Source of the DNA: an uncultured Verrucomicrobia subdivision 3 bacterium
GTDB lineage: Bacteria; Verrucomicrobiota; Verrucomicrobiia; Limisphaerales; UBA11358
Direction: 5' to 3'
DNA: 36,042 nucleotides
Assembly: GCA_903875465.1 (NCBI GenBank)
Contig: CAIQWB010000080.1
Coordinates: 1 to 36,042 of the forward strand
Shown: positions 14,721 to 36,042 of the stretch, one piece after another
Numbering within the stretch: the first letter of the stretch is position 1
Layout of the letters: the number at the start of each line of letters is the position of its first letter
The notes under the pieces: model-generated
What the model saw: only the letters and a program-made list of their open reading frames with translations
Database searches by the model: none
What the model was told of the DNA's origin: nothing
Program-made: the position numbers and the translations under genes

Positions 14721-14761
14721 AACACCGAACTCCCAGCCATTTTAATTTCGGAGTTCGGGTT
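14721..14761. repeat. MITE-like element, copy B (41-bp tip-to-tip relic)
   Basis: The left tip ACCGAACTCC is joined directly to the right end CCAGCCATTTTAATTTCGG plus AGTTCGGGTT. Only the terminal inverted repeats of the 229-bp element remain, and TTAA occurs at both flanks. It looks like an internal deletion between the two ends, or a minimal hairpin left behind. Confidence 0.75.
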
Positions 14762-14947: not shown

Positions 14948-15637
14948 ATGAAACCTTCTGAAAACCACCGCACTCACCGCATTGGCTGGCTCCGGGCCGC
15001 GGTCTTGGGCGCGAATGACGGGATTGTTTCGACCGCGAGCTTGATTGTGGGCGTGGCTGCCTCGGAGGCCAGTCGCAACAGTGTGCTGGTCGCCGGATTG
15101 GCCGGTCTGGTTGCGGGGGCGATGGCCATGGCGGCTGGTGAATACGTTTCGGTGAGTTCCCAGTCCGACACCGAAAATGCGGATTTGGAGCGGGAGCGCG
15201 AGGAACTGGCCACGGACGTGGATTTTGAAACGGCTGAACTTGCCGCGATCTACGTCCAGCGCGGCTTGGATGCCGAGCTGGCCAAACAGGTCGCCGCGCA
15301 ATTAATGGCCCACGACGCCCTGGGCGCACATGCGCGCGACGAACTGGGCATTTCCGATACCTTGAGCGCCCGACCGGTCCAGGCGGCCCTGGCCTCTGCG
15401 TGCATGTTCACCATGGGGGCCGTCCTGCCATTATTGCTCGTTTTGGTGGTGCCAGCCGCCTGGCTCGTCGGGGTGGTTTCCGGGAGTTCCCTCCTTTTTC
15501 TGGCGGTTTTGGGGGCGCTGGCGGCGCGCGCCGGGGGATCGCCCGTTTGGAAATCAGTTGCGCGCGTCACCTTCTGGGGCGCGCTCGCCATGGCCTTGAC
15601 GGCGGGGGTTGGCGCATTGTTTGGGGCGAGAGTTTGA
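14948..15637 (+). CDS. VIT1/CCC1-family iron/manganese transporter
   Basis: The 229-residue membrane protein begins with WLRAAVLGANDGIVSTASLIVGV, the diagnostic TM1 of the VIT/CCC1/nodulin-21 family, then LVAGAMAMAAGEYVSVSSQSDTE (TM2 and the start of the cytoplasmic metal-binding helices). A charged cytosolic segment rich in Glu follows (DLEREREELATDVDFETAEL), then three further hydrophobic segments near the C-terminus. Family members move Fe2+ or Mn2+ out of the cytosol. The length is normal. It is monocistronic on the visible evidence. The ion transported is inferred. Confidence 0.93.
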   Translation: MKPSENHRTHRIGWLRAAVLGANDGIVSTASLIVGVAASEASRNSVLVAGLAGLVAGAMAMAAGEYVSVSSQSDTENADLEREREELATDVDFETAELAAIYVQRGLDAELAKQVAAQLMAHDALGAHARDELGISDTLSARPVQAALASACMFTMGAVLPLLLVLVVPAAWLVGVVSGSSLLFLAVLGALAARAGGSPVWKSVARVTFWGALAMALTAGVGALFGARV

Positions 15638-15735
15638 AATGATTTTTCATTGCCGGGCGCACCAAGACTCGCCCGCGGGCCACCCGTGCCCGGGCAGGGA
15701 TGCCTGGATTACTGCTTTTGCGGCAAATTTAATTC
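15638..15735. other. Short intergenic region before MITE copy C
   Basis: A GC-rich imperfect stem (GGGC CACCCGT GCCC) near 15676-15691 could slow transcription after the transporter gene, but there is no following T-run. Nothing else is supported. Confidence 0.25.
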
Positions 15736-16244
15736 AACCCGAACTCCGAAATTAAAACGGCCGGTCGGCATCCATCGCTTGGGCTTAAACGCTTGGGAAC
15801 ATTGGCTTCCCAAGCCGCGGCCAAGCAGTTGCCCATTTAAGGATGCGCGCTGCTCGCCGAGGCAGTCTCACCAGACCACTGCGGGTAGGCCGGCGATTTT
15901 TCCAAAGTGTTTCTGCTCCAACATCTGGACACATCCCAGCCGGTTCCTCGCTGTTTTCGGTGGCAGGTGAATCGAGCTGACAAATTGAGCGGTTGGGGAA
16001 TTGCTGCTGCAATCCCAACGGGATTGCGCCCGTTGGCCGGCACAGCCCCAGGGCACAACCCCGTTGGGGTTGAATAAAAATGCGTCAGCCTCCCCAGGGT
16101 AGTCCCGCTGCCGGGACAACCCTGGCCTGGCGGACGGAATCCCGTGGGGATTCGGCAATCCAGCAGCCAACGGCCCAAGCCAACCCGAACTCCACCGAAA
16201 ACAGCGAGGAACCTCCCAGCCATTTTAATTTCGGAGTTCGGGCT
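15736..16244. repeat. MITE-like element, copy C, interrupted by a nested element
   Basis: The left terminal repeat AACCCGAACTCCGAAATT starts at 15736 and the matching inverted right repeat ends at 16244. The interior matches the copy at 32689 except that a 272-bp element sits between the two halves of its CCCAGCC region. Removing 272 bp plus one 8-bp duplication leaves 229 bp, exactly the length of the intact copy. The interior contains a GGCTTCCCAAGCC palindrome-like core. The right end abuts the PsiE-like gene. Confidence 0.9.
15942..16213. mobile_element. Nested non-autonomous element with perfect 22-bp terminal inverted repeats
   Basis: The ends at 15942-15963 and 16192-16213 are perfect inverted copies over 22 bp (GGTTCCTCGC... 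and ...GCGAGGAACC). The element is flanked by an identical 8-bp direct repeat TCCCAGCC at 15934-15941 and 16214-16221, the signature of a transposition event. It is 272 bp long and has no transposase. Its interior holds several stem-loops: CAATCCC/GGGATTG near 16010, CAACCCC/GGGGTTG near 16057, a compound stem around CAGGGTAGTCCCG and CGGGACAACCCTG near 16095-16125, and GAATCCC/GGATTC near 16137. An 8-bp duplication is typical of several transposase families, so the mobilising enzyme cannot be named. Confidence 0.9.
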
Positions 16245-16251
16245 GAATGCA

Positions 16252-16668
16252 TTGGAACGGATCATCAATCTGACACTGCTGGTCCGGTTGATGCTCATCC
16301 TGCTGGTGGCCACCGTGGATTTCGGCTCGACCATCCTCCGCGACCTGCTGGCACCACCCCTGTTCAAAATCCAGGTGGAGCCATTACTCGAATTGTCTGG
16401 CTCCTTCCTGCTGGTGCTGATCGGCTTGGAATTGCTCGATACCATCAAGAGCTATCTCACCACCAAAAAGGTCCATGTCGAAGGGGTGCGGTTAGTGAGC
16501 ATTATTGCGGTGGCCCGCAAGGTGGTCATTCTGGAACCCAAGGAGTTGGACAGTCTGAAGTTAATGGGGATGGCCGCCAGCATCGCCGCGCTTACCATCG
16601 GCTATTACTTCGGGAAGCTGGCCGCCGCCAAAGACCACCAGGCGGAGCTGCCAACGCCCAAAGAATGA
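16252..16668 (+). CDS. PsiE-like phosphate-starvation-inducible membrane protein
   Basis: From the TTG at 16252 the protein has 138 residues (LERIINLTLLVRLMLILLVATVDFGS...) with three to four hydrophobic helices and the family pattern LLELSGSFLLVLIGLELLDTIKSYL, VHVEGVRLVSIIAVARKVVILEPKEL and a final helix MGMAASIAALTIGYYFGKL. It is a predicted inner-membrane protein; the family's function is not well defined. The frame remains open upstream through the right end of MITE copy C and into the nested element as far as an ATG at 16144, which would add 36 unrelated residues (...LPAILISEFGLNA). Thus the native start may have been replaced or lost when the element inserted. The true initiation codon is uncertain. 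Confidence 0.75.
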   Translation: MERIINLTLLVRLMLILLVATVDFGSTILRDLLAPPLFKIQVEPLLELSGSFLLVLIGLELLDTIKSYLTTKKVHVEGVRLVSIIAVARKVVILEPKELDSLKLMGMAASIAALTIGYYFGKLAAAKDHQAELPTPKE

Positions 16669-32688: not shown

Positions 32689-32917
32689 AACCCGAACTCC
32701 GAAATTACAACGGCCGGTCGGCAGCCATCGCTTGGGCATAAACGCTTGGGAACATTGGCTTCCCAAGCCGCTGCCAAGCAGTTGCCCATTTAAGGGTGTG
32801 CGCGGCGCGCAGAGGCAGTCTCACCAGACCACTGCGGGTAGGCCGGCGATTTTTCCAAAGTGTTTCTGCTCCAACAGCTTGAAGCATCCCAGCCATTTTC
32901 ATTTCGGAGTTCGGGTT
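32689..32917. repeat. MITE-like element, copy D (full-length, 229 bp)
   Basis: The left terminal repeat AACCCGAACTCCGAAATT at 32689 and the inverted right repeat ending at 32917 bound an intact copy with all interior segments: GGCTTCCCAAGCC, GCAGTTGCCCATTTAA, CAGACCACTGCGGGTAGG and TTTTCCAAAGTGTTT. TTAA borders both sides. It sits in the divergent region between the Asp-box protein gene and the histidine kinase gene, so promoters of both may lie in or beside it. Confidence 0.9.
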
Positions 32918-35901: not shown

Positions 35902-36042
35902 AACCCGAACTCCGAAATTAAAACGGCCGGTCTGCATCAATCTCTTGGGCATAAACGCTTTGGAAAATTGGCTTCCCAAGCCACTGCCAAGCAGTTGCCC
36001 ATTTAAGGATGCGCGCTTCGCGCAGAGGCAGTCTCACCAGAC
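35902..36042. repeat. MITE-like element, copy E (continues past the window end)
   Basis: The left terminal repeat AACCCGAACTCCGAAATT begins at 35902 and the interior matches copies C and D through GGCAGTCTCACCAGAC at the last base. About 90 bp, including the right terminal repeat, would lie beyond the window. The element abuts the cut end of the thioredoxin-like gene. Confidence 0.88.

Follow-up and report, generated by a model that had tools for sequence, protein, structure and literature searches.

The DNA analyzed here (the window) comprises positions 1-36042 of contig C80, which belongs to an assembly of 5.3 Mb in 153 contigs. A VIT-family gene (14948-15634) lies upstream of the locus of interest, and a PsiE-family gene (16144-16668; PF06146, E 5.8e-24 for 16252-16665) lies downstream, followed by HlyD-, ABC-, and MacB-type genes. 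The locus itself is a copy (copy C) of a dispersed 225-bp repeat, designated family 1, which is split by a second element of 272 bp (Table 1). No more than approximately 25 bp separate the start of the PsiE-family gene from the right end of family 1; the frame of this gene stays open upstream through family 1 and into the inserted element, up to the GTG at 16144, and the nearest start beyond the repeat is the TTG at 16252. The insertion may affect the start or the expression of this psiE-like gene. A simple scan of 15600-16400 for promoters and terminators returned none of either.

Table 1. Features of the nested locus and of the unbroken comparison copy in the window.
Feature	Positions	Strand	Basis or remark
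Family 1 host copy (225-bp repeat, TIR CCCGAACTCCGAAATTAAAA), split by the MITE	15738..16242	+	
Second recurrent insertion position, CGGCGATT	15891..15898	+	empty in the window copy, occupied in others
Proposed target motif CAAG-N3-TTG, here as the variant CCAG-N3-TTG	15919..15928	-	candidate; 5 bp outside the duplication
Target-site duplication TCCCAGCC, left copy	15934..15941	+	
Nested element, assigned as a 272-bp ISL3-type MITE	15942..16213	+	perfect TIRs, matching TIRs on the 1,328-bp IS, RNA fold
Left terminal inverted repeat, 22 bp	15942..15963	+	
Single 29-nt repeat, place of the internal deletion	16010..16038	+	alignments; the 351-bp copy has two imperfect repeats, starts 79 bp apart
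Right terminal inverted repeat, 22 bp	16192..16213	-	
Target-site duplication TCCCAGCC, right copy	16214..16221	+	
Copy D, unbroken family 1, 225 bp	32691..32915	+	empty-site comparison

The two 22-bp ends of the nested element, which had been described as perfectly inverted, are 100% complementary in an inverted-repeat scan, and identical octamers bracket the 272 bp just as proposed. A perfect inverted pair of at least 14 bp within 300 bp was found in none of 20 shuffled windows. Measured from CCCGAAC to GTTCGGG, copy C is 505 bp long; subtraction of the element and one octamer (280 bp) leaves 225 bp, which is the length of copy D and of 25 of 30 unbroken family 1 copies, copy D being among the 25. 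The restored length of 229 bp given in the original prediction is the same result with wider boundaries. When the flanks are joined with one octamer kept, the resulting 225 bp align to the family 1 consensus with a score of 217 out of 225. The proposed order of events, with family 1 in place and the second element transposed into it later, thus holds at the window locus; copies of the 272-bp block without terminal repeats at other locations, by which the proposal could have been overturned, are not the pattern seen. A search for an empty orthologous locus by way of the downstream PsiE-family gene gave no homologue of that gene in any of the 58 other genomes searched (E ≤ 1e-10).

Family 1 is an abundant component of this genome. 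Its ends gave 229 matches, corresponding to about 115 copies; at 225-235 bp each, these make up about 0.5% of the genome. Further pieces in the window are a copy with an interior deletion (115-277), an end fragment (14731-14759), and a copy cut by the window end (35904-36042). The repeat is flanked by 5-bp duplications of the TTNAA type, which are identical in all five positions in 19 of 30 copies. An IS1380-type origin of family 1 was considered and found no support, the corresponding transposase domain (PF13701) giving no match at E ≤ 1e-5 in the own genome, which is 96% complete; the control search with PF13701 gave matches in 1 of 14 genomes. In another genome of the same genus (G033), many sequences related to the 3' half of family 1 are present (at least 13 matches at E ≤ 1e-8, from 13 of 124 candidates scored), and the end of the nested element was not found there at ≤3 mismatches.

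For the nested element, the check suggested had been to look for a full-length relative whose ends of this type enclose a transposase; such a relative is present in the same genome. The 22-bp end has 65 genome matches at ≤3 mismatches, compared to none for the reversed pattern. One pair of these ends encloses an insertion sequence (IS) of 1,328 bp (C1:36484-37811) with a reading frame of 421 amino acids; its left TIR is identical to the MITE end over 22 bp, its right TIR shows two mismatches, and TTATTAAG flanks it on both sides as an 8-bp duplication. The TIRs of this IS measure 25 nt, are 88% complementary, and start with GGTTCC. The 421-amino acid protein is assigned as an ISL3 transposase by its matches to Pfam PF01610 (E 5.4e-59) and NCBIfam NF033550 (268.3 bits; cut-off 180). 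Members of the ISL3 family are about 1.3-1.5 kb long and carry TIRs of about 15-40 bp that begin with GG, a description that the partner IS fits. Since its ends match those of an IS carrying an ISL3 transposase, the 272-bp block is classified, on the basis of its sequence, as an ISL3-type MITE; at 272 bp it is shorter than 500 bp, does not contain a transposase gene, and belongs to a family of tens of copies. A relative MITE copy matches the 1,328-bp IS over 26 bp of the end only, so that the MITEs share ends but not body with the IS found and this copy is not a simple deletion derivative of it.

In the own genome, a single complete ISL3 transposase gene of this kind was detected; the other four matches at E ≤ 1e-5 represent C-terminal fragments. 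With the own genome included, the transposase was matched at E ≤ 1e-60 in 11 of the 59 genomes searched and the 22-bp end at ≤3 mismatches in 20 of them. Related IS loci in titled database genomes number 22, of which 15 are titled Verrucomicrobia, Verrucomicrobiia, Opitutaceae, or Limisphaerales; by title, the remaining seven are from a "bacterium" (five), Lentisphaerae (one), and Proteobacteria (one).

The two-ended MITE copies other than that of the window amount to 12, seven of them measuring 338-351 bp and five 121-291 bp. Compared to the 351-bp copy, in which a 29-nt repeat occurs twice in imperfect form, the window MITE is shorter by 79 bp, which is the start-to-start distance of the two repeats; it is read from these alignments as an internally deleted subform of a parent of about 349 bp. 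The deletion junction of the 272-bp form is common to three copies (window, C114, and C115) with different flanks, from which it follows that the short form itself has moved. Evidence on the age of the nested insertion, which the original prediction called "probably recent", points both ways: neither the ends nor the duplication have decayed and the closest partial copies reach 98% identity over 184 bp (C114) and 99% over 140 bp (C24), but the window MITE shares 86-94% identity with the 12 further two-ended copies. Folded as RNA, the 272-bp element has a free energy of -154.1 kcal/mol versus a shuffle mean of -105.5 (z -9.08).

An 8-bp target-site duplication is well supported for these elements and far from universal. 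In the own genome, with the IS included, 14 two-ended elements are flanked by octamers that agree in 8/8 positions in five cases, in 7/8 in four, and in 3/8 or less in four, with one element unreadable at a contig end. Among related full-length IS in titled database genomes, 12 are readable; four show 8/8 (L174, L175, L178, and L179) and the other eight 4/8 or less. The 13 readable two-ended elements in other comparison genomes are distributed over 8/8 (two), 6/8 (two), and ≤4/8 (nine). Where it is missing, the duplication would have been lost through decay or rearrangement. An element of another genus (L149; G038:C210:10400-10950) has similar ends, with flanking direct repeats of about 28 nt in place of the 8-bp duplication.

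Beyond the single nested copy originally described, the nesting recurs at two positions of the host repeat and reveals an unusual target bias. Of the 65 ends, 64 have a flank of at least 30 nt and were retained; the remaining end, whose flank measures 4 nt, was left out. Weak internal look-alikes (L049:753 and L050:726) were removed before counting, and C138:6481, a likely chance match, was kept among the ends outside family 1. Of these 64 ends, 37 are inside family 1 and 27 elsewhere; because family 1 makes up about 0.5% of the genome, chance alone would be predicted to place fewer than one end in it. The window position (TCCCAGCC/GGCTGGGA and close variants) accounts for 28 of the 37, one of these being shifted or carrying a small deletion; eight, two of them diverged, are at the second position (CGGCGATT and variants), and the last adjoins a truncated family 1 copy. 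Counted from one side per site, there are at least 17 elements at the first position and at least four at the second. Both orientations are represented at the first position, with the left end of the MITE facing GGCTGGGA 13 times and TCCCAGCC three times; the window MITE is in the rarer orientation. One orientation comprises four left-end subtypes and the opposite one two; in addition, a 96-bp remnant of an IS right end (95% identical; C78, L032:566-661) occupies the first position of a further family 1 copy.

Taken together, these data very probably describe an ISL3-mobilized MITE inserted in a 225-bp repeat, which its family has repeatedly entered at two positions. The 272-bp MITE would be a non-coding element whose ends are recognized by an ISL3-family transposase supplied from another locus of the genome; this enzyme would have inserted it into a pre-existing copy of the abundant repeat, and fill-in of the staggered cut would have given rise to the 8-bp duplication. 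The MITE family would have entered the two fixed positions of the host many times, the repeat happening to satisfy the target preference of the transposase, and its about 115 copies would thereby provide a genome-wide landing pad. Mobilization in trans is inferred, a single complete transposase gene of this kind having been found, and the many elements that have no 8-bp duplication weigh against the reading. It is likely that the target preference of the transposase would be the cause of the hot spots.

The recurrence could alternatively derive from a single nested insertion, after which the composite of family 1 and MITE was amplified by transposition of family 1. Family 1 looks mobile itself, as indicated by its TTNAA-type 5-bp duplications, and many composites share the same 8-bp site; a single event, however, does not account for both orientations, several subtypes, the IS remnant at the same site, or the second site, nor do the hosts form a single clade. 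A tree calculated from 45 sequences of family 1 shows the 15 occupied hosts scattered among the 30 empty ones; its support is low, and the empty copies are the best matches to copy D and thus bias the comparison. The eight hosts of one orientation (b) have a mean identity of 0.892 among themselves and of 0.912 to empty copies, and the three of the other (a) values of 0.931 and 0.926, respectively; the 30 empty copies average 0.934. Composite amplification is disfavored by the host tree and by the orientation and subtype counts, and is altogether unlikely as the general explanation, except perhaps for the window and the half copy in C115. These two agree in orientation and left-end subtype, their MITEs are 100% identical over 67 comparable bp, and the tree groups their hosts as sisters (support 0.73); they may therefore be copies of one composite. 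Repeated independent insertion is favored over the copying of one composite by the two orientations, the subtypes, the second site, and the scattered hosts, and most of the recurrent elements would be independent insertions.

Homologous recombination or gene conversion between dispersed family 1 copies, following a few founding insertions, would automatically lead to a fixed position, and is favored by the about 115 copies, of which the 30 empty ones examined average 93% identity. Conversion alone, though, can create neither a second site nor different subtypes, for which several founders are needed; to obtain the opposite orientation, either an additional founder or inversion of the segment between the ends would be required, and some of the same subtypes also occur in unrelated DNA. 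As an account of the whole pattern it is therefore a minor possibility, less improbable than the amplification of one composite; within one orientation and subtype class, gene conversion may add copies. That the 272-bp block is no transposon at all, but a structured RNA or attachment-type sequence residing in the repeat by chance, would be in keeping with its very stable fold (z -9.08). Such an origin is extremely improbable, as removal of the block restores the host length precisely, its ends are shared with the IS, many copies exist elsewhere, some with duplications of their own, and L001 has no Rfam match at the gathering threshold.

With regard to what the transposase would recognize under repeated independent insertion, a candidate motif is CAAG-N3-TTG, which is enriched at insertion sites. 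In the counts for this motif, flanks of less than 30 or 40 nt were left out and ends sharing the same 25-nt flank were counted once. CTTG is found exactly 13 nt from the element (i.e., 5 nt outside the duplication) at seven of 27 ends outside family 1; in 2000 flank shuffles, no 4-mer at any distance reached seven, the highest value being five. Among relatives, which were fetched after the motif had been noted, CTTG is present at 3/83 ends, a count reached in one of 2000 shuffles, and CTTA or CTTG at 6/83 ends, reached in none of 2000; depending on the TIR look-alike filter, the relatives contribute 82 or 83 ends, with CTTG at three in both cases and CTTA or CTTG at five or six. TTNNCAANNACTTGC, which was drawn from insertion sites, matches the genome six times and its reversed control once; among the six, three coincide with insertion sites in identical register, and one more (C132) looks unoccupied. 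Read on the other strand, the motif is CAAG-N3-TTG; the family 1 consensus carries it in matching register at the first position and has the looser form AAAG-N3-TTC at the second.

The evidence on this motif is mixed. CTTG is missing at the expected distance from 20 of the 27 ends outside family 1, where one of the two ends per site would carry it, and from 80 of the 83 ends in relatives. Another perfect CAAG-N3-TTG in family 1 is used by none of the insertions seen, and CTTG occurs in five of 11 occupied family 1 copies versus 22 of 30 empty ones, which is opposite to simple expectation. As a cause of the hot spots, the motif is a candidate only; that the ISL3 transposase reads CAAG-N3-TTG 5 bp outside the duplication, and that family 1 serves as a landing pad by carrying it, is a tentative and somewhat doubtful proposal. 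If true, the recognition motif of this ISL3 transposase would lie beyond the site that is duplicated.

A conserved stretch was observed in L191, L193, L195, and L196 (C132:78434-78448), i.e., at three occupied sites and a seemingly unoccupied one. It starts with TTGACGG or TTGCCGG and has a TTTTCAATNACTTGC-like end, which in L191 is TTTACAAGTACTTGC; the distance from its start to ACTTGC is about 47 nt. As a common feature of insertion sites, tRNA genes were sought in 18 loci and found in none. A search of five loci against Rfam at the gathering threshold returned only a TPP riboswitch (RF00059, 57 bits; L195:125-253, minus strand), which is near the C108 insertion site and away from the site itself.

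Comparable systems are known from other bacteria. In Microcystis aeruginosa PCC 7806, a MITE of 187 bp has been attributed to ISL3 transposases (PMC11448079). According to the parts of that report consulted, it resembles the present element in being non-coding, in its 8-bp duplications, in its stem-loop fold, and in ends that match full-length ISL3 elements of the same genome, and it is present in about thirty copies. Its TIR is imperfect and 9 nt long (GGCTCTTCG), in contrast to the perfect 22-nt TIR found here, and those parts describe no repeated nesting of the MITE at fixed sites within another repeat (PMC11448079). Insertion sequences such as ISPsy8, ISPa11, ISPpu9, ISPpu10, ISRm22, and ISRm19 insert into repetitive extragenic palindromes (PMC1525189), where, from the consulted sections of that paper, a mobile element likewise enters a dispersed repeat repeatedly and thereby creates a hot spot; here, however, the target is a 225-bp MITE-like repeat and the attacker an ISL3-type MITE, which uses two positions and both orientations. 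A bacterial MITE as target of another mobile element is also represented by QMITE2 of Coxiella burnetii, which is the target of IS1111 (reviewed in PMC10969869); as far as the portions of the review consulted go, a REP-like palindrome is recognized in that MITE and two IS1111 copies are involved (PMC10969869), whereas in the present case there are at least about 21 elements (17 at the first site and four at the second), nearly all of them MITEs. In the literature on ISL3 MITEs, ISL3 targets, and nested MITEs, as covered by titles and abstract openings with few subscription journals, neither such recurrent nesting nor a motif outside the ISL3 duplication was among the matches listed.

At this one locus, the order of two repeat families is given together with the enzyme family behind the nested element. 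The at least about 21 insertions into near-identical targets constitute a natural set from which ISL3 target choice can be studied at the sequence level. Many composites lie at contig ends of the fragmented assembly, and copy number and linkage of the MITEs are probably underestimated where contig ends fall there. Part of the assembly breaks of this genome is thereby explained, since many contig ends are located in or near these elements, examples being those of C14, C19, C24, C62, C67, C77, C104, C137, and C138.
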